NCBI RefSeq assembly: GCF_030419005.1
Contig: NZ_CP106951.1
Span: 3,720,001 to 3,784,000 of the forward strand
Source of the DNA: Eleftheria terrae
Lineage (GTDB): Bacteria; Pseudomonadota; Gammaproteobacteria; Burkholderiales; Burkholderiaceae_C
DNA: 64,000 bases
Direction: 5' to 3'
The notes below the pieces were generated by a model, which saw nothing but the letters and a program-made list of their open reading frames with translations, searched no databases and was not told the DNA's origin. The translations under genes were made by a program, and so were the position numbers. This document shows positions 15,360-54,126 of the stretch, piece by piece; position 1 is the first letter of the stretch; every line of letters starts with the position of its first letter.

Positions 15360-16985
15360 GTGACCGAGCCTCTCGTTGCGTCGCACGGCCGTCAGTCCGC
15401 TTCCGCCGTGAAGGCGGCCGCCGGGGCATTTGCGCGCGACACCAGCTGCGACGTGCTGGTGGTCGGCGGTGGCATCAACGGCGTGGGCATCGCCCGCGAC
15501 CTGGCCGGCCGTGGCCTGAAGGTGGTGCTGTGCGAGAAGGACGACCTGGCCCAGCACACGTCGTCCTCCTCCACCAAGCTGATCCACGGCGGGCTGCGCT
15601 ACCTGGAGTACTACGAGTTCTCGCTGGTGCGCAAGGCCCTCATCGAGCGCGAGGTGCTGCTGCGCAGCGCGCCCCACATCATGTGGCCGCTGCGCTTCGT
15701 GATGCCGCACGACCCCTCGATGCGGCCGGCCTGGATGCTGCGTGCCGGCCTGTTCCTCTACGACCACCTGGCCAAGCGCGAGGTGCTGCCCGGCTCCGCC
15801 GCCATCGACCTGCGCCACCACGAGGCCGGGCAGCCGCTCAAGCCGGTCTACAGCAAGGCCTTCATCTATTCCGACGGCTGGGTCGACGACGCCCGCCTGG
15901 TGGTGCTCAACGCACTGGACGCGGCGGCCCGCGGCGCCCAGATCCACACCCGCACCCGCTGCGTCGATGCCCAGCGCACGGCCAACGGCTGGAAGGCGGT
16001 GCTGCAGGCCAGCGACGGCGACACCTTCACCGTGATGGCGCGCGCGCTGGTGAACGCCGCCGGCCCCTGGACCGGGCAGTTCCTGCGCGAGCATGCCCAC
16101 CAGCCCGACAGCAAGGGCCTGCGCCTGGTGAAGGGCAGCCACATCGTGGTGAAGAAGATGTTCGACCACCCGATGGCCTACATCTTCCAGAACCCTGACA
16201 AGCGCATCATCTTCGCCATTCCCTACGAGCAGGACTACACCCTGATCGGCACCACCGACGTCGAGCACAAGGGCCCCATCGGCGAGGCCCGCATCGACCA
16301 GGGCGAGATCGACTACCTGTGCGAGCAGGCCAGCCGCTACTTCGCGCGCCCGGTGACGCCGGCCGACGTGGCCTGGAGCTACGCCGGCGTGCGCCCGCTG
16401 CTGGACGACGCCTCCGGCAACGCCTCGGCCGTGACGCGCGACTACCTGCTGGAGCTGGACACCCGCGAGGCGCCCTTGCTGTCGGTCTGGGGTGGCAAGA
16501 TCACGACCTTCCGCAAGCTGGCGGAGGAGGCGGCCGACCGGCTCTGCCCGACGCTTGGCAACCGCTCCACCGCCTGGACCGCGAGCGAGTCGCTGCCCGG
16601 TGGCGACCTGCGGGCCTACATCGGCACGCCGCAGCGGCCCGACACCGACTTCGAGCGTTTCGACCAGGCGCTGGCCGACCGCCACCCCTGGCTGCCGCCG
16701 GTGCTGCGCCGGCGCCTGGCGCGCAACTACGGCAGCCGCATCGACCTGGTGCTGGGCAAGGCGGCCCGGCTGGAAGATCTGGGCGACGAGGTGGCGCCCA
16801 ACCTGCGGGTGGCGGAGCTGAGCTACCTGTGCAATCACGAGTGGGCCTGCAGCGCCGCCGACGTGCTGTGGCGGCGCACCAAGCTCGGGCTGCACCTGAG
16901 CCCGGAACAGCGCAACGCGGTGGCGCTGTGGTTCGAACGCAGTTCGGCGCCGACCCAGCCGGCTTCGCTGGCCTCGGCGCGCTGA
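15360..16985 (+). CDS. glpD: Glycerol-3-phosphate dehydrogenase (FAD, respiratory)
   Basis: A 541-residue flavoprotein oxidising glycerol 3-phosphate to dihydroxyacetone phosphate and passing electrons to quinones at the inner membrane. The dinucleotide fold is at residues 31-60 (DVLVVGGGINGVGIARDLAG), followed by SSSSTKLIHGGLRYLEYYEF and VNAAGPWTG. The C-terminal cap domain is also complete. The GTG start at 15360 follows an excellent AAGGAGA ribosome site; the earlier ATG at 15300 has none and adds a non-conserved leader. glpS follows 34 bases later, so glpD opens the rightward operon with the importer genes. Confidence 0.95.
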   Translation: MTEPLVASHGRQSASAVKAAAGAFARDTSCDVLVVGGGINGVGIARDLAGRGLKVVLCEKDDLAQHTSSSSTKLIHGGLRYLEYYEFSLVRKALIEREVLLRSAPHIMWPLRFVMPHDPSMRPAWMLRAGLFLYDHLAKREVLPGSAAIDLRHHEAGQPLKPVYSKAFIYSDGWVDDARLVVLNALDAAARGAQIHTRTRCVDAQRTANGWKAVLQASDGDTFTVMARALVNAAGPWTGQFLREHAHQPDSKGLRLVKGSHIVVKKMFDHPMAYIFQNPDKRIIFAIPYEQDYTLIGTTDVEHKGPIGEARIDQGEIDYLCEQASRYFARPVTPADVAWSYAGVRPLLDDASGNASAVTRDYLLELDTREAPLLSVWGGKITTFRKLAEEAADRLCPTLGNRSTAWTASESLPGGDLRAYIGTPQRPDTDFERFDQALADRHPWLPPVLRRRLARNYGSRIDLVLGKAARLEDLGDEVAPNLRVAELSYLCNHEWACSAADVLWRRTKLGLHLSPEQRNAVALWFERSSAPTQPASLASAR

Positions 16986-17019
16986 AGCGCCGGACGATAA
17001 AGACGACGATGGAGAGAAC

Positions 17020-18108
<1,089 letters not shown>

Positions 18109-18109
18109 C

Positions 18110-19207
<1,098 letters not shown>

Positions 19208-19238
19208 GGCTGGGCCCGAGCGCGACGGAGACGATCGA

Positions 19239-20928
<1,690 letters not shown>

Positions 20929-31953: not shown

Positions 31954-32427
31954 GCCCTGGCGAACGGGGGCCGTGTGTCGGCGCTGACACGCAGCGGCAA
32001 CATGCTGGGCCAGCGGCGGGCGTGCAATGCGGGGCCGGCGGCGACGAGCCGCCTTCTTCCCTTCTTCATCTGCAGGAAGGACCCGCATTGCACGCTGACG
32101 ATCGTCCCTGCGGCCAGGGACTGGCCCACGACCTTGAAAACGGCTGTGGTCCAGCACCGCCCGGTGCCACGGCGCGCTGCGCCGGCTGGCGGCCTTCGCG
32201 GCTTCTCGCACTGCAAACAGTGGCGGCACCGGCCTCGGCTTGCGCATCGCGCGCGACCTGAGCTGGCGCTGCGGCGGCAGCCTGCGTCTGCGCAACCGCA
32301 ACCGCAACCGCAGCGGCGGCGGCGGCCGCTTGCAGTCCGAGCTGCTCTTGCCTGCCGCCCCTGTCACCTTCACCGTTTGACGGGGGGATTGCAGCCTTCA
32401 TAAAGTGCACCACTTGTAGAAGGGTGC
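31954..32427. other. Gene-poor spacer holding a histidine-kinase remnant
   Basis: A 474-base gap between the kinase-fold gene and the AAA-like gene. The first 180 bases have only broken frames. The right half holds a reading frame with a histidine-kinase C-terminal signature, listed separately. The CGCAAC hexamer repeated three times at 32289-32308 lies inside that remnant. Confidence 0.5.
32138..32380 (+). pseudogene. Remnant of a sensor histidine kinase (C-terminal ATPase end)
   Basis: Between two stop codons in one frame, about 80 codons encode RLAAFAASRTANSGGTGLGL, then RIARDLSWRCGGSLRLRN, then GGGGRLQSELLLPAAP and a stop at 32378-32380. GGTGLGL plus IARDL, GG-L-L and LLLPA are the G2 box and final strands of HATPase_c domains. 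The preceding N, G1 and H boxes are missing and a stop interrupts the frame at 32135. No start or ribosome site is present. The identification rests on this short stretch; a chance match is possible but unlikely. Confidence 0.6.
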
Positions 32428-44995: not shown

Positions 44996-45637
44996 TCAGG
45001 CGGCAGGCTCCGACAGGATCTGCCGCAGCGCGCGCTCGAACACCTCGGGCGGCTGGCCGCCCTGGATCAGGTGGCGGTCGTTGATGATCACCGCCGGCAC
45101 CGAGCTGATGCCGTTCTCGAGCCACTGGCTTTCGGCTTCCCGCACTTCCCTGGCATAGGCGCCGCTGTCCAGCACCTCGCGGGCGCGTGCGATGTCCAGG
45201 CCGGCAAGCCCGGCCGCGCGCACCAGCACTTCGACGTCGCCCGGGTTCTCGCCTTCGGTGAAGTAGGCAGCGAACAGGGCGTGCTTCAGTTCACGCTGGC
45301 GGCCTTCCAGGCCGGCCCAGTGCAGCAGGCGATGCGCATCGAAGGTGTTGTAGATGCGGTCACGCTTGTCCATCCGGAAGGTGAAGCCCACCGCTTCGCC
45401 GCGCGCGCGGATCTGCTCTCGGGTGCGTTCGCTCTGCTCGGCACTGGCGCCGTACTTCTGCGCCAGGTGCTCGGTGATCTCCTGGCCCTCGGGTCCCATC
45501 TGCGGGTTCAGCTCGAAGGGCTGGAAGTGCCAGTCGACCTCCACCGGGCCGGGCAGGCGCTCGAGGGCCTGCTCCAGCGAGTGCAGGCCGATGGCGCACC
45601 AGGGGCAGGAGATGTCGGAAACGAAATCGATCTTCAT
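44996..45637 (-). CDS. DsbA-family FrnE-like oxidoreductase
   Basis: A 213-residue thioredoxin-fold protein of the FrnE/2-hydroxychromene-2-carboxylate isomerase-like group. The active site is CPWC at residues 11-14 (MKIDFVSDISCPWCAIG). The helical insert (YNTFDAHRLLHWAGLEGRQR) and the C-terminal cis-Pro region ISSVPAVIINDRHLIQGGQP complete the fold. No signal peptide is present, so it is cytoplasmic. It likely acts on glutathione-linked or aromatic substrates; this is unproven. Stop codons of this gene and the 44708 gene converge. Confidence 0.88.
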   Translation of the reverse strand: MKIDFVSDISCPWCAIGLHSLEQALERLPGPVEVDWHFQPFELNPQMGPEGQEITEHLAQKYGASAEQSERTREQIRARGEAVGFTFRMDKRDRIYNTFDAHRLLHWAGLEGRQRELKHALFAAYFTEGENPGDVEVLVRAAGLAGLDIARAREVLDSGAYAREVREAESQWLENGISSVPAVIINDRHLIQGGQPPEVFERALRQILSEPAA

Positions 45638-45768
45638 GGGAGGCCGCAGAGGATGGGTCAAGCCCGACAGGTGAGGGCGCCTGCCGGGCTTGCAAGGCAC
45701 CGGCGCGGCGATCGTCCGGCTTGCAGGCGGGGCGCGGCCACGACCATGGCCATGGCCACTCGCCAGCC

Positions 45769-47676
45769 CTACATCCCCACCGCATACGCCACTGCCGCGC
45801 TCAGCGCGAGCCCCAGCAGGTAGCGCGGCCAGCCGAGCCGGCGCTGCACCAGCGACACGCCCAGCCAGACGGCGCCGAGCATGAACAGCAGCGGGCTTTT
45901 CAGCGTCACCGCCAGCTTCACCAGCAGGCCCACCTGCAGCAGGTAGCGCCACCAGGAGATGGGCGGCAGCTTGTCCTGCGGGGCCGCTGGCGGCGTGGCG
46001 ACTGCGCTGTCGGCCGGCTTGCGCAGGTCGATCGCGCCGCGGCCGGCGACCGGGGTGGCCGGCGCCTCGACGGGCCGGCCTTCGCGCTCGGCACGCTGGC
46101 GGGCCAGGCGCTCGTCCCGCCGGGCCTTGATCTGGCCGGCCGTCAGCTGCAGCACCGGTTCGGGCCGCGGCGCCGGCTGCCACCAGGCGGCTCCACTGGC
46201 GCGCGGTGGCGCCTCGCCGCGGGCGGCATGCTGCCGGAACATTTCCGGGGCCCTGGCGGCCGGGCGCGCGGCCGTGGGCAGCGCCCGGGCCTGGGCCAGC
46301 AGCGTCGCCCCCTGGCGCGGGTTCACCATCTGCACGAACTGCGCATAACCCAGCAGGCGCTCGCGGGTGGCCGGCTCGCCTTGCCAGCGGGCGCTGTCCA
46401 GCCCGCCGGTGTGGGCGCGGTGCAGCGCCGCCCGCAGGGCCCGCCGCTGCTCGCGCGAGGCGGCGGGCTGCTGGTTCACGACCACGCCCGTCACCTCCTG
46501 GCGGCTGCCGGCGCGCATCACCCGCTGCTTGTCGGGATGTGGCACGAAGCCTTCGTCCTCGAGCACGTGGTGCACCTGTCGCAGCAGCCGGCCGACCGAC
46601 TGCGCAGCCTCGCCCGAGGCCGAGAAGGTCAGGTCGTCCGCATAGCGGGTGTAGGCAAAGCCAAGCTTGCGGGCCAGCCCGGCCAGGCGCCGGTCGAGCT
46701 TGCGGCACAGGATGTTGGTCAGCATGGGGCTGGTCGGCGCGCCCTGTGGCAGCACGCGGTCGCGGCCCTTGCCGCCGACGTAGAAGCGCTCGCCGTCCAC
46801 CTGCAGCTCGTCACAGGCGTTCTCGCTGCACAGCAGGGCCAGCACGCTGGCCACGTCCTCGCCATAGCCCAGGCCGGCAAAGACGCCCTTGATGCGCGGG
46901 TAGCCGATGCTCGGGAAGAAGTCCTTCAGGTCCAGGTTGATCACCACCGTCTGGCCGCAATGCGGCGCGGCGTTGGAGACGATGTTGCGGCCCGCAAGGA
47001 AGCCGTGCGCCGCCTCGTGGCAGGGCACCTTGGCCAGCAGCTGGTCCAGCACCCAGTACTGGGCGCGCTTGAGCCGCGGCATGGGCGCCGAGATGATGCG
47101 CTCGCCGCCGGTCTTCTTCGGCAAGGCGAAGCGCCGGTAGTGGGTGGTGCGGGCCACCTCGCGGTGGAAGCTCAGGAACTTCAGCTCCGCCAGGCTGATG
47201 CCCATCGCCTCGGCCAGCGCCTGCGGTGTCTGCAGCTCGGGCAGCCCGTGGCGGCGCAGCTTCTCGCGGGCCGCATCGTCCAGGCCCTGTGGCTGCAGGC
47301 CGCCCGACACCCCTGCGCCCAGGTAGCCGGCCTGCTGCTGGCGCGCCTGGTGCCAGCGCAGCGCCCGTTCATGGCGGCGCCGCTCACGCGCCTGGGCGGT
47401 GGCCTCGCGGCGCTCGCGCGCGCGCGCCATGCGCTCCTGGCGCATGGCCTTGAGTGCGCGTTGCGGGTCGCCCTTTTCGTGCAGCTCCGCCTGCAGCTGG
47501 TTCAGCGCCTGCGCCAGCTCGGCCTCGCGCTCGATCAGTGTCGCCTCGATGCCGGGCGGCCCGCTGTCGGCCGGCCAGAAGCCCAGGCGCTGCATCTCGG
47601 CCAGCACGACCGCGTCCTTGCTGGAGGCCTCGATGCGTTCGAGCAGTTCGGCTCGGGTGGGTTGCCGCTCGCTCAT
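45769..47676 (-). CDS. Retron reverse transcriptase with C-terminal membrane domain
   Basis: A 635-residue RT. Residues 1-165 are a charged, helical extension. The RT core (about 175-455) has motif A NLDLKDFFPSI (Asp249), the retron NAxxH (NAAPH, 235-239), PQGAPTSPMLTN (310-321), the catalytic YADD (345-348) and the retron VTG (395-397). After a basic/proline-rich linker (460-570), residues 576-634 contain two or three hydrophobic helices (YLLQVGLLVKLAV, LLFMLGAVWLGVSL, LLGLALSAAVAYAVG). The RT reverse-transcribes the msd part of the RNA at 47708-47949 into msDNA. Start 47676 follows AAGGAGG six bases upstream. It is last in the operon. Confidence 0.92.
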   Translation of the reverse strand: MSERQPTRAELLERIEASSKDAVVLAEMQRLGFWPADSGPPGIEATLIEREAELAQALNQLQAELHEKGDPQRALKAMRQERMARARERREATAQARERRRHERALRWHQARQQQAGYLGAGVSGGLQPQGLDDAAREKLRRHGLPELQTPQALAEAMGISLAELKFLSFHREVARTTHYRRFALPKKTGGERIISAPMPRLKRAQYWVLDQLLAKVPCHEAAHGFLAGRNIVSNAAPHCGQTVVINLDLKDFFPSIGYPRIKGVFAGLGYGEDVASVLALLCSENACDELQVDGERFYVGGKGRDRVLPQGAPTSPMLTNILCRKLDRRLAGLARKLGFAYTRYADDLTFSASGEAAQSVGRLLRQVHHVLEDEGFVPHPDKQRVMRAGSRQEVTGVVVNQQPAASREQRRALRAALHRAHTGGLDSARWQGEPATRERLLGYAQFVQMVNPRQGATLLAQARALPTAARPAARAPEMFRQHAARGEAPPRASGAAWWQPAPRPEPVLQLTAGQIKARRDERLARQRAEREGRPVEAPATPVAGRGAIDLRKPADSAVATPPAAPQDKLPPISWWRYLLQVGLLVKLAVTLKSPLLFMLGAVWLGVSLVQRRLGWPRYLLGLALSAAVAYAVGM

Positions 47677-47711
47677 GGCCGGCCTCCTTGCGAGGCCGAA
47701 GCGGCGTGAGA

Positions 47712-47728
47712 AGGGAGTGCAGCGCGTT
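47712..47728 (-). repeat. Retron a2 repeat
   Basis: Reads AACGCGCTGCACTCCCT on the minus strand, the exact reverse complement of the a1 segment (47930-47946). It defines the 3' end of the retron RNA. One mismatch/bulge then three more pairs extend the duplex beyond 47711. Confidence 0.88.
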
Positions 47729-47929
47729 TCTCGTCGAAGAGCCCAACGGGCTTGCAGGACGGGGGCTGTCCACTCGACGCCGCGCGTCCCCTGGTGTGCA
47801 CTTGCGCTTGAGGCAAGCCATACCGGCAGTGCACACCAGGGGACAGCGCGGCACAGTGAAGACGGCACCCGTGGCGCATGGAACGGCGGTTGGCAGGGGC
47901 GGCGAAACACCGCCCGGGTTGCAAGAGCC

Positions 47930-47946
47930 AACGCGCTGCACTCCCT
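47930..47946 (-). repeat. Retron a1 repeat
   Basis: Reads AGGGAGTGCAGCGCGTT on the minus strand and pairs with the a2 segment at 47712-47728 over 17 bases. It defines the 5' end of the retron RNA, about 20 bases after the stop of the SWIM gene, so the RNA is expected to be processed from the operon transcript or to start very close to it. Confidence 0.88.
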
Positions 47947-47965
47947 CTCAGTTTAACCATAAAGT

Positions 47966-49669
47966 TCACATCGCCTCCTTCGTGGAGGCGCTCTGCAGTG
48001 CCTGCATGTCGTTGAGCCGGGGCTGCGCCACCTGGCGCAGCGCGAGCATGTGGGCGCAGGGGCCGCGCCGCAGGCGGTTCTGTTGGTGGAAATTGCAGGT
48101 GCAGCGGCCGTCGCGCAGCCGCAGGTCGGCGTCGAGCTGCAGCAGCGGTGCCAGTGGCCGGCCGTGGTCCTTCACGGTGCCGGTGATCTGCAGCCCGCTG
48201 CCCACCGCCTGGATCTCGCCCAGCCGCACGCCGCCGGCATGCACCAGCTCCAGCGCGGCGCTTTCCTCCGGGCTGCTGAAGCGCAGCTGCTCCAGCGGCA
48301 GCGGCTCGCGCGACAGTTCGCGCCAGGCATAGCGGCGCGCCGGCAGGTCGTAGACCGCGCGGCCCGCCTGCACCCACAGCGCCAGCGCGGCCTGCACGTC
48401 CGCCTCGTGCAGCCCGCTGTCGCGTGCCAGCTCGGCCGGCGTGGCCTGCCAGGCGGCCTGCAGCGCGCTGCCGATGCGGTGCTTGGTGGCATCGGCCACC
48501 GTGTGGCGCGGCTGCAGCAGGTCGAAGCGGCCGGCGGCCGACCAGTCGTTGGCGGTCCAGCCCGACAAACCGAGCGTGACGGTGATGTCGTCCATCTCGA
48601 TGACCCAGAAGCTCGGCATGCCGCTGCCCAGCAGGTGCACCCGCACCCGGGTGGCCAGTGCGATCAGCCGCTCCAGCACCAGCAGCCGGCGCCGGCCCCA
48701 CAGCCGCACGGTGCTCGGCCCGGCCAGCGGCGGGCCGACGACGCTGCTGCGGCGCGCCTGCAGCGCCAGCCCCCAGGGCTCGAACACCAGGGTGGCCGGT
48801 GCGCCGGGCCGCAGTTCGAAGCGCAGCGAGCGCGGGCCGGCACGCTCCTTGTGCTGGCGCAGCGTGGCGCAGATGTTATGCAGGTCCATCGGATGCAGCT
48901 CCAGCACGGTGGCCGGTAGCGTCATCGCGCTGGACACCTGCAGGAAGCCGCGCACCCAGCTGTCGGGCAGGTCGATCTTCTCCTCGTGGAAGGCCGGGTC
49001 GTCGCCGCTGGCCACCGTGAAGCCTGCCGGCTCCACCGTGAAGCGGGTGGCCTTGTAGCTGCGGATCTTCTGGAACTCCTCGAACAGGCTGGCGGAGTAG
49101 TCGATGTTGGTGGTGCCGCAGGCCATCTCGCCAGTGCGCTCGAAGACGTCGTGCTTGACGCTGACGGCGCAATAGCTCGACTCGTCCTGGCTGAAGGCCT
49201 CGAACAGCAGGCGGTCGGGGTGCACGGTGATGACTGGGTCGAGCACGTACCAGGCGTCGCGGTTGGCCTGGTACAGCCAGTCGAAGTAGCGCTGCCGTGC
49301 CTGGTAGAACGGCCGCAGCAGCGTCTGCTTGCGGCTGCGCAGCTGCTTCAGCTCCTCGCTGACCTCGCGCAGGTGTGCGGCCAGTGTGTCGGCCTGCTGC
49401 ATGAATTGGGCGAGCAGGCCGCTTTCATTGCCGGCCAGCCATTCCCGGTAGGCGCGCAGGTCGCGGCCGCGATAGCGCTGGTCGCTCACCACCACCGCAT
49501 GCAGCGCCGACAGCGCCTCGCGAAAGCACAGGTGGGCGCTGGAGTCGCGCCGCAGCGTGCCTTCGAACCAGGTGGGCGGGCGCAGCGTGTCGGGCGCGAA
49601 GCTGAAGGACTGGGCCGTGTCGCTGCCGTCCACCGAGGTGCTGCCGAAGTACTTGTAGCGGAATTCCAT
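47966..49669 (-). CDS. Winged-helix plus SWIM zinc-finger protein of the retron operon
   Basis: A 567-residue protein. The C-terminal SWIM finger is C523-x-C525 ... C538-x-H540 (CTCNFHQQNRLRRGPCAHML). A winged-helix-like domain at about 410-452 (TPAELARDSGLHEADVQAAL then WVQAGRAVYDLPARRYAW) precedes it. The rest is mixed helical with a coiled-coil segment near 85-125 (TLAAHLREVSEELKQLRSRK). SWIM fingers bind DNA or proteins. It is encoded between the HEAT/ARM gene (12-base gap) and the retron RNA, as expected for a retron accessory gene; I recall such a WH-SWIM partner in type XIII retrons. Confidence 0.82.
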   Translation of the reverse strand: MEFRYKYFGSTSVDGSDTAQSFSFAPDTLRPPTWFEGTLRRDSSAHLCFREALSALHAVVVSDQRYRGRDLRAYREWLAGNESGLLAQFMQQADTLAAHLREVSEELKQLRSRKQTLLRPFYQARQRYFDWLYQANRDAWYVLDPVITVHPDRLLFEAFSQDESSYCAVSVKHDVFERTGEMACGTTNIDYSASLFEEFQKIRSYKATRFTVEPAGFTVASGDDPAFHEEKIDLPDSWVRGFLQVSSAMTLPATVLELHPMDLHNICATLRQHKERAGPRSLRFELRPGAPATLVFEPWGLALQARRSSVVGPPLAGPSTVRLWGRRRLLVLERLIALATRVRVHLLGSGMPSFWVIEMDDITVTLGLSGWTANDWSAAGRFDLLQPRHTVADATKHRIGSALQAAWQATPAELARDSGLHEADVQAALALWVQAGRAVYDLPARRYAWRELSREPLPLEQLRFSSPEESAALELVHAGGVRLGEIQAVGSGLQITGTVKDHGRPLAPLLQLDADLRLRDGRCTCNFHQQNRLRRGPCAHMLALRQVAQPRLNDMQALQSASTKEAM

Positions 49670-49681
49670 GTCGGGCGGGCC

Positions 49682-52600
49682 TCAGCGAGGCAGGGGCGCG
49701 GGGCGCGTCCATTGCAGGAAGGGCAGCTCGATCTGCGGATGCCGGGCGGCGATGTCGCGCAGGCCGGCAATGAACTGCGGCTTGTCGGTGAGGCTGGCGG
49801 TGACCACCTGGCGCGCGAAGATCTCGGCCACCACTGCGGCGGTCTCGGGGGCGCCGACCTGGCGGCGCAGGAAGTCGATCACCCGGGTCTTGGCGGCGCG
49901 GGCCCGGTGCACCTGGCTCAGCACGGTGAGGAAATAGGGCTTGAGCGCCCGCAGCTGCTGCGCCAGCCGGGCCGGGTCGCCGCTTGGCAGCTCCAGCAGC
50001 CACTGCGTCACGAACAGCTGCACCTGGATGCCCGGGTGCTGGCTGAGCCGGCTCAGGCACAGGCTCGCCTCGCCGGCGTCCATGCGGCGCACCAGCCGGG
50101 CGCGGCCCAGGGCTTGCAGCCACTCCTGTGGATGGTCGATCCAGGCGATCAGCAGCTCCACGCTGAGCGACTCGTCCGGCAGCCGCTCGCCGAACAGTGC
50201 CTGGCCCCAGGCCCGGGCGTCGTCGAACAGGGTGTCGGCGACCGGCAGCAGCTCGGCCGCCTGCCCGGCGCTCGGGCGACCCAGGCGGCGCAGGGCGTCG
50301 TCGATGGCCTGCATGGCCCAGCGGCGCACCGACACGTCGGCATGCCGGGTCAGCGTGGCGAGCTGCTTCAGGCTGAAGTCACCGGCCTCGCGCGCCGCCA
50401 GGGCCCAGGCGCCGTAGCGCTGGGCGCCGGCGCTGCGGGCCTGCAGCGCGCGCCAGACGCTGGCCGGGTCGCGCGCCGGCGCCTGCGGCGCGAGCGGGCC
50501 GGTCAGCAAGCGCAGGATGTCGTCATGCACGCCTTCGGCCGGCTCCGCACTGAACAGCCGTACGTGCAGCGGCTCGGCCAGCTGGCGGGCCAGGTCGGCG
50601 TCCTGCATGGCCAGGCGCTGCAGGGCCGGCGCCACCGCGGCGCGGATCGCGGCATGCGGGTGCACCGCCAGTTCGGACAGCAGCCCGAGCTGGCCGCGCA
50701 GCAGGCGGTCGGGCAGGGCGGCCAGCAGGCGCACGCCCTGGGCGCGCCGCGCGGGATCGGCATCGGCCAGCAGGCCGGTCAGCGTGGCGGCGGGCACCCG
50801 GGAAGCGCCATCGGGCAGCTTCAGCAGCCAGCTGACGGCCAGCCGGACCAAGCTGGTGGCCGGGTGGCCCAGCAGGCACAGCAGGGGTTCGCTGCGGGTG
50901 CGGGCCAGTTGCTCGGCAGCCGGCGCGAGGCGGTCGCCGAGCAGGGCTTCGATCAGCGTGGCGCTGTCGTCCAGGCCGGGGGCGCCGGGGTCGGCGGCCA
51001 GCAGGGCGTTTTGCAGCTCGGCCAGCAGCGGCTCCGCGGCGGCCAGCAGGGCCAGGCCACGACCCTGGCCGCGCAGGCGCTCGTCGGCGCTCAGCAGCAG
51101 GGCCACCGCGAGGTCGGCATGGAGGCTGTAGCGCGCCGGGTCGGCCGCCAGCCGCATCAGCACGAAGTCGCGCGCCGGGGCATGGGGGCTGCGCGCCAGC
51201 AGCTTGAGCCAGGGCAGCTCGGCGGCGCTGTCCTGCCCGCTGTCCTGCAGCCGGATGCGCACCGCCTCGAAGCCGAGCGCTGCAATGGCGGCATGGCGGC
51301 TGCCCAGCAGGCCTTCGAGCTGCGGCGGCGCCAGGCGCGTGATGAAGTCGGCGTGGTCCTGCAGGGCCCGCGCCACCACCGACAGCACCAGCGCGCTGCG
51401 GCCCTGCAGGGCCAGCGTCAGCAGTGCCTCGGGATGGGCATCCCACATGGCACGCAGGCCCTCGCTGCGCTGCGGCATGGCCGTGCCGGTGGGCAGCGGC
51501 TGCGACGTCCACCAGCGGTGCGCGCGTTCACTGCGCTGCACCGGCTCGGGATGGGTCGCCAGCAGCAGCTTGGGCACCAGCAGCCAGCCGGCGCTGGGGG
51601 CGTAATGGCGCCGCACTTGCGTGTAGCGGCCGTCGACGTGGTGCCAGCGGCTTTCCTCGCGGGCCGGTGGCAGTTCCGCATCGTCCAGCTGCAGCAGCAT
51701 CGCCACCGCAAGCGCCGGCGCCTGCGTGTGCTCCAGCGCGGCGAGCCGGCGCAGCTGGCGCCAGCCACGCCGGCGCAGGTAGTCGCGCGTGCGGCTGCCG
51801 TAGGCGAGGCGGGAGCCCGCCATGGCCATCTCGGCACGCACCGGCGTGTTCACCCAGCGCTGCGTGTCGGGCGCGAAGAAGCCGTAGCTGCCGCTGCCGC
51901 CATGGTTGTGAAAGTTGGCCGGCGTGTTCTCGAAGCGGGCATGCAGCACCGCCAGCACGGCGGTGTCGTGGCGGATCTCGGCGGCCTTGTACAGGTGCCG
52001 CACCGCCTGGAAGAAGCCGGCCTTCAGCGGCAGCACCTTCAGCAGGCGCAGCAGGGCCGCATGGCGGGCCGGCTGCGCCAGCGCCAGGTCGTACCAGGGC
52101 GGCAGCAGATCGGTCCAGCCCTGGCCTCGAGTGGCCAGGCGGTGCTGGAGCGCGGCGAGCTGTTCCTCGGCCGGGGCCTCGGGGTGCATGAGGTCTTGCC
52201 AGTCCGGCAGCAGGGCGGCGGCGCGGGCCTCGCGCTCGGTCGGCGCCAGCAGCAGCCACCACGCCTGGTGCGCAGCCCGGCGGGTGGCCGGCGTGCGGCC
52301 GCGGCGCGACAGCTCGGCCATGGCCTCGCCGGCGCCGGCATCGCCAAGGCGGGCGATCGCCACCGCCAGGCAGAGGTCGAGCAGGTCCTTGCCGCTGCCC
52401 AGCAAGTCCACCAGCCGCGGCACCAGGGCGCGCAGCGCCTGCTGGCCGGCCTCGGCCGCGCGGCCGGCATCGACGCATTCGGCCAAGCGCCAGGCCGTGC
52501 GGGCCTGGTGGGCCGGCGGCAGCAGCTTCCAGCGGTCGGGCTGGAAGCGGGCCACCAGGGCCGCCAGGCGCGCAGAGACCGGGGCTGGCGTGGCCGCCGG

Positions 52601-52927
52601 GGGCGCCGCCGGACGCGGCACAAGGGGTGGGGGCACCGCGGCCAGTAGCTCGTCGAAGCCGTCCTGGCGCAACAGCTCGTCGCCTGCGGCCAGGCGGCGT
52701 TGCAGGAAATCGAGCGCACGGCGGCGGGCCTCGGCCAGCGAGACGGGGGCGACGGTCAGCGAGGCGTCCTGCAGTTCGCTCAGGGCGCCGCTGCCGCTCA
52801 GCAAGCCGCGGCGCACGGTGACGAGGCAGCGAGCCTCGGCGGGCTGGTCCAGCTCGATCAGCTCGACCGTGCTTTGCTGCGCGCGCGGCTGCCGGCGGAC
52901 GACACTCGCGGAAGCGATCTTTTTCAT
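49682..52927 (-). CDS. Large HEAT/ARM-like repeat protein of the retron operon
   Basis: A 1081-residue protein built mostly of helical repeats (for example ALRALVPRLVDLLGSGKDLL, LLSELAVHPHAAIRAAVAPA and TLTRHADVSVRRWAMQAIDD), typical of HEAT/ARM solenoids. The first 80 residues (VELIELDQPAEARCLVTVRR, SLAEARRRALDFLQRRLAAG) look like a degenerate WGR-type domain, which is tentative. It lies 12 bases upstream of the SWIM gene, first in the operon. Start 52927 has GAGGG. A role as effector or scaffold of the retron is inferred. No catalytic motif is visible. Confidence 0.75.
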   Translation of the reverse strand: MKKIASASVVRRQPRAQQSTVELIELDQPAEARCLVTVRRGLLSGSGALSELQDASLTVAPVSLAEARRRALDFLQRRLAAGDELLRQDGFDELLAAVPPPLVPRPAAPPAATPAPVSARLAALVARFQPDRWKLLPPAHQARTAWRLAECVDAGRAAEAGQQALRALVPRLVDLLGSGKDLLDLCLAVAIARLGDAGAGEAMAELSRRGRTPATRRAAHQAWWLLLAPTEREARAAALLPDWQDLMHPEAPAEEQLAALQHRLATRGQGWTDLLPPWYDLALAQPARHAALLRLLKVLPLKAGFFQAVRHLYKAAEIRHDTAVLAVLHARFENTPANFHNHGGSGSYGFFAPDTQRWVNTPVRAEMAMAGSRLAYGSRTRDYLRRRGWRQLRRLAALEHTQAPALAVAMLLQLDDAELPPAREESRWHHVDGRYTQVRRHYAPSAGWLLVPKLLLATHPEPVQRSERAHRWWTSQPLPTGTAMPQRSEGLRAMWDAHPEALLTLALQGRSALVLSVVARALQDHADFITRLAPPQLEGLLGSRHAAIAALGFEAVRIRLQDSGQDSAAELPWLKLLARSPHAPARDFVLMRLAADPARYSLHADLAVALLLSADERLRGQGRGLALLAAAEPLLAELQNALLAADPGAPGLDDSATLIEALLGDRLAPAAEQLARTRSEPLLCLLGHPATSLVRLAVSWLLKLPDGASRVPAATLTGLLADADPARRAQGVRLLAALPDRLLRGQLGLLSELAVHPHAAIRAAVAPALQRLAMQDADLARQLAEPLHVRLFSAEPAEGVHDDILRLLTGPLAPQAPARDPASVWRALQARSAGAQRYGAWALAAREAGDFSLKQLATLTRHADVSVRRWAMQAIDDALRRLGRPSAGQAAELLPVADTLFDDARAWGQALFGERLPDESLSVELLIAWIDHPQEWLQALGRARLVRRMDAGEASLCLSRLSQHPGIQVQLFVTQWLLELPSGDPARLAQQLRALKPYFLTVLSQVHRARAAKTRVIDFLRRQVGAPETAAVVAEIFARQVVTASLTDKPQFIAGLRDIAARHPQIELPFLQWTRPAPLPR

Positions 52928-53148
52928 GCGACCCTCAGGTATGTCGGCGAGGCGTCCCGCGCCCCGGCTCGTCCGCCGCGGCCCTGCGGGCCGGGCGGCA
53001 GGCCGCATCGTACCGGGTGTGGCCGCCCGCCTGCCGGCCGGGCCCCCAATCGGGGGAGCCGCCGGACCCTGCGCGGCACCGCGATCCGGGGGGACGCGCC
53101 GCTGCCTTGCGCCGCGACAATCCGCTCACATCGCCCTGCTGCCCCCCC

Positions 53149-54126
53149 ATGCCCGTCTTCTTCCGGCCGTTCACGACCTCACCACTTGCCTCCTGGTGCG
53201 GCGCGCTGGCGCTGGTCTGCTGTGCCGCCGGCCTGCCGGTGGCCGCGGTGGCCGGCGAGCCATCCGCCGCCGGGGCCCGCGACACGCCGGAAGAGGTGCT
53301 GATCGCCGTGCTGCGCACCGAGGCTCAGACCTACGAACACGGCGACGGCGTGCCGCGCGACGGCGGCAAGGCGGCCGAGCTCTACTGCGAGGCGGCCCGC
53401 CTGGGCGACGCCGAATCGCAGTTCAGCCTGGGCTGGATGTACACCAACGGCCGGGGGGTGGAGCGCAGCGATGCGACGGCGGCGTTCTTCTTCCATGCCG
53501 CGGCCGAGCAGGGCCATGAACAGGCGCAGCGCATGTTGCAGGCGGTGGGCGGCCCGCCGACGGAGGTGCCCGATTGCATGCGGGTCGCCGCGCCGGCCGC
53601 GCCACGGCTGCCCGGCCCGGCCGCCCGCACCGCAGCTGCGGCCCGCCTCCCGGCGGCGGCGCCGCGCCGGGTGGTGGAGCTGGTGAACCGCATGGCGCCG
53701 CAATACCGGGTCTGGCCGCAGCTGGCGCTGGCCATCATCGAAGCCGAGTCGAACTTCGACACCGTGGCGCTGTCGCCGCGCCATGCCAAGGGCCTGATGC
53801 AGCTGATTCCGGAAACGGCGGCCCGCTTCCAGGTGCGCAACCCCTACGACCCGGCGGAGAACATCCGCGGCGGCCTGGCCTACTTGCGCTGGCTGCTGGC
53901 CTACTTCGAGGGGGACGTGGCACTGGTGGCGGCCGCCTACAACGCCGGCGAAGGCACGGTGGAGCGCTACCGCGGCGTGCCGCCGTATGCCGAGACGCGA
54001 GCCTACGTGCGCCGCATCCTGGCCGCGGTAGGCGAAACGGTGCACCCTTTCGACGCCGAGGCGGCCCGGCCGTCGCCCGCGCTGCGGCGCATCCGCGACG
54101 GCGAGGCGCTGCAGCGCCGGCCCTGA
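53149..54126 (+). CDS. Lytic transglycosylase with Sel1 repeats
   Basis: A 325-residue exported protein. After a signal peptide (ALALVCCAAGLPVAAVAG) come two Sel1-like repeats (residues 56-125; GDGVPRDGGKAAELYCEAAR, GDAESQFSLGWMYTNGRGVE). The SLT domain follows with catalytic Glu in IIEAESNFDTVALSPRHAKG, LMQLIPETAARFQVRNPYDP, VAAAYNAGEGTVERY and VPPYAETRAYVRRI. It cleaves peptidoglycan glycan strands with anhydromuramyl products. ATG 53149 lies just before the signal peptide. It is divergent from the retron operon. Confidence 0.9.
   Translation: MPVFFRPFTTSPLASWCGALALVCCAAGLPVAAVAGEPSAAGARDTPEEVLIAVLRTEAQTYEHGDGVPRDGGKAAELYCEAARLGDAESQFSLGWMYTNGRGVERSDATAAFFFHAAAEQGHEQAQRMLQAVGGPPTEVPDCMRVAAPAAPRLPGPAARTAAAARLPAAAPRRVVELVNRMAPQYRVWPQLALAIIEAESNFDTVALSPRHAKGLMQLIPETAARFQVRNPYDPAENIRGGLAYLRWLLAYFEGDVALVAAAYNAGEGTVERYRGVPPYAETRAYVRRILAAVGETVHPFDAEAARPSPALRRIRDGEALQRRP

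Follow-up and report, generated by a model that had tools for sequence, protein, structure and literature searches.

The window analyzed here, a stretch of 64,000 nucleotides from Eleftheria terrae, raises the question of whether four closely spaced elements on its minus strand form a retron and, if so, of which type and with which protein as its effector. Read from position 52927 down to position 45769, these elements are the genes for a WGR/HEAT-repeat protein and a winged-helix/SWIM-finger protein, a structured RNA, and the gene for a reverse transcriptase (RT), in this order:

49682..52927, minus strand: WGR/HEAT-repeat protein, 1081 aa (PADLOC WGR_XIII, 843 bits, residues 1-1076)
47966..49669, minus strand: winged-helix/SWIM-finger protein, 567 aa, candidate effector (PADLOC SWIM_XIII, 701 bits)
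47708..47949 (about), minus strand: msr-msd RNA (folding, inverted repeats, covariation)
45769..47676, minus strand: retron-type RT, 635 aa (RT_XIII, 590 bits; Pfam RVT_1, 3e-20)

A preliminary description had presented them as one leftward unit with spacers of 12, 17, and 31 bases, and the coordinates agree: 12 bases separate the WGR/HEAT and SWIM genes, and the other two values hold if the arms of the RNA are extended imperfectly. No promoter or terminator was found inside the operon by consensus.

A search against the PADLOC retron models assigned the RT, the SWIM protein, and the HEAT/WGR protein all to type XIII, bearing out the make-up (HEAT/ARM and winged-helix/SWIM partners) that the preliminary description had given for this type. 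The second-best family for the RT reached 347 bits, and the SWIM_XIII and WGR_XIII models each covered nearly the whole of the corresponding protein; for the large protein, HEAT-ARM_XIII matched more weakly than WGR_XIII. The locus is thus almost certainly a type XIII retron, and probably an anti-phage gene set centered on an RT that turns a small RNA into DNA. The definition of this type reportedly stems from the Mestre 2020 classification; the class is already catalogued, and the evidence that the window operon belongs to it is good. Nor is the operon a chance assembly, since all three proteins find matches in 68 of the 72 related loci, a few of these matches being partial where a contig ends, and the pairs of the RNA covary; the remaining four loci (L007, L015, L049, and L064) are truncated by the end of their contig. 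Among aligned relatives of the large protein, Pfam HEAT_2 was found in 18 of 29 and Pfam WGR in 6 of 29, the latter not in the window protein itself. Neither partner protein had an NCBIfam match above the cut-off or a family in PHROGs, where the RT matched polymerase/RT families only. In the open-license literature searched, the accessible parts of which need not be all that is in print, the sole appearance of type XIII was as an entry among the PADLOC results for a Variovorax strain (PMC11953036), and Variovorax loci are among our 72 relatives. The accessible parts of PMC12548924 and PMC12262390 held nothing relevant on type XIII, SWIM, or WGR, and those of PMC7159879 mentioned neither SWIM nor WGR.

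The RT, whose start ATG is preceded by AAGGAGG, carries all the motifs ascribed to it earlier, i.e., NAAPH (matching NAxxH), YADD (46644-46633), and VTG. Its profile was far nearer to solved retron RTs (Ec86, E of 3.5e-71) than to the best group II intron RT (E of 3.2e-9), so that its separation from the latter, as well as its placement among retrons, stands when judged by profile rather than by a tree of all retron types. In NCBIfam, six RT families were matched, the top three of them retron families, all under the cut-off. The RT domain and the paired outer RNA arms resemble those of Ec86 and other solved retron RTs, but the latter measure approximately 310 to 380 aa where the RT stands alone, compared to 635 aa in the window. 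The partner proteins of these retrons differ from those of the window operon, too.

With its type XIII kin the operon shares the best-model proteins and an RNA upstream of the RT; the window RT, however, exceeds the type XIII profile, which matches residues 2-489 and leaves approximately 146 residues beyond. The order within the protein is core, linker of approximately 100 residues, and hydrophobic end:

45772..45963, minus strand: hydrophobic C-terminal tail of the RT, residues 572-635, likely a membrane anchor (hydropathy)

Taking the best 19-residue hydropathy mean beyond the VTG motif plus 60 residues as a measure, with a threshold of 1.6, we found that 49 of 50 complete proteobacterial RTs passed (the exception, L015, reached 1.44), versus none of 16 RTs from Bacteroidota and Sericytochromatia (highest value, 1.11); six loci that were cut or had no whole frame (L040, L049, L061, L064, L067, and L072) were left out of this count. 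The window RT scored 1.81 and a copy on a Methylobacterium megaplasmid (L114) scored 2.70. With these two added, 51 of 52 passed, whereas 300 composition-preserving shuffles yielded 11.2 passes on average and 20 at most; the cases are not independent, because the RTs are related. Among the 120 closest database proteins, a near-copy of the window RT included, 119 had the motif, 114 passed, and 5 failed. With little conservation of sequence and strong conservation of hydropathy, the proteobacterial type XIII RT likely ends in a membrane anchor, as judged from hydropathy only, which is no proof of insertion. The genome also encodes a second retron-like RT outside the window (L088:7581-9086; C2:3661580-3663082), located, by eye, between dps-like and ubiA-like genes. 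Its PADLOC scores were 398 bits for RT_other, 380 for RT_outgroup, and 278 for RT_XIII, and 8 of 150 family genomes contained a relative at an E of ≤1e-60. This second family was dropped as a control for the tail, with a usable frame in only one of seven loci (L096).

Between the SWIM gene and the RT gene, the RNA region folded with an energy of -166.4 kcal/mol, compared to -122.1 (standard deviation, 5.4) for shuffled versions (z of -8.2; 0 of 200 as good), and contains the following elements:

47930-47946 and 47712-47728, minus strand: outer arms a1 and a2, 17-nt perfect complements, 201 nt apart
47786..47844, minus strand: long inner hairpin with a 17-nt perfect inverted repeat (47828-47844/47786-47802), presumably the msd part that is copied into DNA

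We aligned the window RNA with those of 39 of the 72 loci, leaving out most Bacteroidota and several near-duplicate loci. On this 40-sequence alignment, RNAalifold predicted 52 pairs, which were formed in 93.5% of cells (mean of shuffles, 71.6%) and of which 43 showed two-sided changes (shuffled, 31.5), including 11 of 11 outer-arm pairs and 18 of 19 pairs of the helix corresponding to the inner hairpin. The covariation score was 0.581, versus 0.184 for shuffled and 0.067 to 0.140 for slid versions, and on none of the five measures taken did any of 500 shuffles score as high; these controls do favor the predicted structure, because it was derived from the same alignment. The structured RNA is real. 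The msr-msd RNA proposed upstream of the RT was therefore recovered with its complementary outer arms, covarying pairs, and conservation in relatives, and the claim, which would have fallen had homologous RTs carried no conserved RNA, stands. Rfam had no family matching anywhere in the 64-kb window. Directly after a1, the sequence CTTGC is invariant in all 40 aligned RNAs, and the G at 47922 within it is a candidate for the branching guanosine.

A covariance model of the 85-nt RNA core, built from 29 of the aligned sequences, gave the window RNA 96.5 bits and, outside the training set, found the RNA of a Sericytochromatia locus (L055) with 43 bits (E of 1.4e-8). For 15 further Bacteroidota loci, it listed three in the right place, with E values of 0.2 to 0.7 that are weaker than that of a chance-like stretch of the window (32323-32390; E of 0.04). 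By eye, eight Bacteroidota and Sericytochromatia regions have in common a CTTGC, two hairpins (one short and one long), and a conserved 3' part with ACGAAG at its end. Seven of these eight (L052, L053, L054, L055, L060, L064, and L067, but not L066) also appear by eye to have, between the RNA and the RT gene, a hairpin plus T run that resembles a terminator; there, the RNA may therefore be a separate transcript. A hairpin that would mask the ribosome site of the RT in the window was considered but was not seen by eye in 15 relatives. Going by called frames, the WGR gene comes first in 53 of the 72 loci and the RT gene in 14, five loci being incomplete; in RT-first loci, the RNA sits directly before the RT gene, and it is therefore tied to the RT rather than to the SWIM gene.

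In a tree of 69 RTs, all of them type XIII apart from one distant RT, the window RT groups with loci of Sphaerotilaceae (support 98/79), within a set of 13 that adds Caenimonas (97/89). Identity to the window proteins (29, 29, and 28 relatives) was 47 to 75% for SWIM, 38 to 68% for RT, and 21 to 60% for HEAT/WGR, making SWIM the best conserved of the three in the alignments. Of 299 family genomes, 13 contained the SWIM protein, one of them with a weak match (30% identity; E of 8e-21). It was present in 2 of 9 genomes of its own genus and, in two genera that had been picked because a member carried the gene, in 6 of 53 and 6 of 6 genomes, respectively.

Within the genus, comparison with congeners delimits an inserted stretch:

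45638..53142, strand not applicable: inserted stretch between dsbA-like and lytic-transglycosylase-like genes (four congeners have both genes side by side)
44996-45637, minus strand: dsbA-like gene (named by inspecting its translation)
53143-54126, plus strand: lytic-transglycosylase-like gene (named by inspecting its translation)

Both flanking genes occur in 5 of 9 genus genomes, our own included, and in the other four, their aligned parts lie 22 to 164 bases apart; they are divergent in congener G355, as in the window, and tandem in the other three. The flanks of the empty site in G355 are 82% and 78% identical to those of the window, and G355 carries the retron at another site (SWIM 74% identical). 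The operon thus fills a site that is empty in this congener, and its site is movable. Neither a tRNA nor a clear composition break was found in the window. When seven flanking genes of the window were compared with the 72 loci, only a Bug-type gene, belonging to a large paralogous family, was matched (L013 and L014). Elsewhere, the flanks of the operon are common to members within several genera or families, e.g., Variovorax and Flavobacterium. In 13 of 15 Oxalobacteraceae loci (L020, L021, L024, L026, L027, L029, L030, L031, L032, L035, L041, L043, and L045), a 5S rRNA motif on the opposite strand follows the operon, at a distance of 77 to about 7600 bases past the RT, and the contig of L022 ends just before the motif would be expected. 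Of 11 loci scanned with Rfam, only L029 showed 5S and 23S, the others being cut inside 5S. The neighborhood of an rRNA operon seems to be a preferred site of the retron in Oxalobacteraceae. Near the retron in seven of eight Flavobacterium loci, we found complete or partial genes of the MoxR-vWA-beta-propeller ternary type (L051 [15575-19295; Pfam bpX3 and bpX1], L057, L058, L059, L062, L067, and L068); L052 had none in the stretch examined.

The best-conserved protein also turned out to have relatives that live without an RT. A tblastn search of a plasmid collection with the SWIM protein returned seven records, one holding a full type XIII operon (L114) and six, at 25 to 30% identity, holding a stand-alone SWIM gene followed by a DUF6493-type gene, as recognized by annotation, Pfam, or tblastn (for L113, L116, and L118, by Pfam or tblastn only). 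Within the 11 to 19 kb of each of these six records, no RT or WGR/HEAT match was found at an E of 1e-3. Profile comparison of 30 retron and 3 stand-alone SWIM proteins indicated full-length homology (E of 1e-33; 434 columns), and PADLOC SWIM_XIII matched the three stand-alone proteins as well (165 to 176 bits), so that a match to it is not by itself proof of a retron. The stand-alone pairs (Asticcacaulis, Diaphorobacter, Streptomyces, and Nonomuraea) resemble the window operon in this homology and in near-invariant residues, but differ in having a nonhomologous large partner, neither RT nor WGR/HEAT nearby, and no counterpart of the stretch of residues 61-124. Indeed, the window's HEAT/WGR protein, tried as a DUF6493 relative, was rejected (E of 0.15; probability, 0.4%); what is demonstrably shared is therefore limited to the SWIM half, and the window operon was not filed as a SWIM/DUF6493 pair. 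The pair, which is possibly a system of its own, was seen on plasmids and megaplasmids of Actinomycetota and Proteobacteria (L111, L112, L113, L116, L117, and L118), with toxin-antitoxin genes nearby in L111 and L117 and an integrase in L111. Phages yielded no SWIM match, and viral contigs yielded a single locus of 29 residues. The yeh genes of Escherichia coli MG1655, which we take to encode a SWIM protein (YehQ), a DUF4132 protein (YehI), and YehM, were also tried as relatives of the retron partners and showed no homology (E values of 0.045, 0.36, and 0.26).

When 67 SWIM proteins from retrons were aligned jointly with 124 stand-alone ones, the latter an uneven sample because a single query had supplied 120 of them as its best hits, what is common to both forms could be separated from what is confined to retrons:

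49298..49489, minus strand: SWIM protein residues 61-124, retron form only (gapped in >90% of the 124 stand-alone proteins)
48977..49240, minus strand: residues 144-231, with D144, E157, N188, D190, and E229-x-K231 near-invariant with or without an RT (joint alignment)
48050..48103, minus strand: SWIM finger, CxC ... CxH, with C523, C525, C538, and H540 (Pfam, alignments)

Together, these six residues of the N-terminal part and four of the finger are almost invariant across both forms, and shorter stretches (130-136, 299-316, 514-519, and 557-567) are likewise gapped in >90% of the stand-alone proteins. The finger itself scored 15.0 with Pfam SWIM in the window protein, under the cut-off of 19.6, and was found at an E of ≤0.01 in 20 of 30 aligned relatives. 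Neither Pfam nor the PDB provided an enzyme signature for the N-terminal domain, and no nuclease family or structure was matched that would make it PD-(D/E)xK-like; the D190 and E229-x-K231 (ExK) pattern common to both forms hints only weakly at a nuclease.

How might these parts work together? According to the accessible parts of PMC12548924, the retrons studied so far act by releasing an effector. In the mechanism that we favor, and to which we give an even chance, the RT would bind the RNA and make msDNA, and the HEAT/WGR protein would serve as a scaffold or sensor in the resulting RT-RNA-DNA complex, its WGR part perhaps reading DNA ends. This complex would keep the SWIM protein inactive until a phage harms the msDNA, or a host factor that keeps watch over it, upon which the released SWIM effector would halt the growth of the infected bacterium. 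The RT tail would, in Proteobacteria, hold the complex at the inner membrane, perhaps just to position it, because the RTs of Bacteroidota have no such tail. We assign the effector role to SWIM because, of the three proteins, it is conserved best and has full-length, RT-less relatives beside another large gene and because the retron-only insertion could serve to dock it to the complex. The patchy occurrence and the movable site, as for defense genes, were counted in favor of this mechanism. Weighed against it were the missing enzyme signature in the N-terminal domain of SWIM, the few proteobacterial and database RTs in which the tail fell short, the missing homology between HEAT/WGR and DUF6493 proteins, the fact that no other defense genes were recognized beside the window operon, and the stable placement in some genera, which a movable defense gene need not show. 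A more specific version, in which proteobacterial type XIII systems are membrane-tethered retrons whose SWIM effector, maybe an unrecognized metal-dependent nuclease, was drawn from an RT-independent pair and is docked by the insertion, is a tentative proposal that we consider rather doubtful.

The roles of the two partners could also be reversed, the HEAT/WGR protein acting as effector and SWIM as regulator or docking factor. The HEAT/WGR protein is, after all, the largest and fastest-changing part and, as far as tested, specific to retrons, sharing no homology with the large protein that accompanies stand-alone SWIM; yet fast change would suit a sensor equally well, the protein gave only repeat and WGR matches and none to an enzyme, and it is the SWIM family that also lives without an RT. 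We therefore regard such a reversal as unlikely. Less probable still is that the RT tail itself is the toxic element, damaging the inner membrane once freed from its partners. Its near-universal presence in complete proteobacterial RTs, with hydropathy rather than sequence conserved, would fit this explanation, but the Bacteroidota and Sericytochromatia RTs, none of which passed, have kept both partners and the RNA. Just as improbable, in our estimate, is that the retron is maintained for a host function unrelated to phages, such as DNA repair or stress control. While the flanks shared within genera such as Variovorax and Flavobacterium, the SWIM gene in every genome of one genus, and the stable site near an rRNA operon in Oxalobacteraceae would be in line with such a function, the gene is rare in the family as a whole and in another of the genera, and it is absent from seven of nine genomes of its own genus, in which the two carriers use different sites.

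Beyond membership of a known class, three features of the operon are notable, namely, the RT tail, the retron-specific insertion in SWIM, and the existence of RT-less SWIM relatives. The covarying RNA, the RT tail, and these relatives offer direct handles on which part of such a retron senses, which part acts, and whether a retron operates at the membrane.
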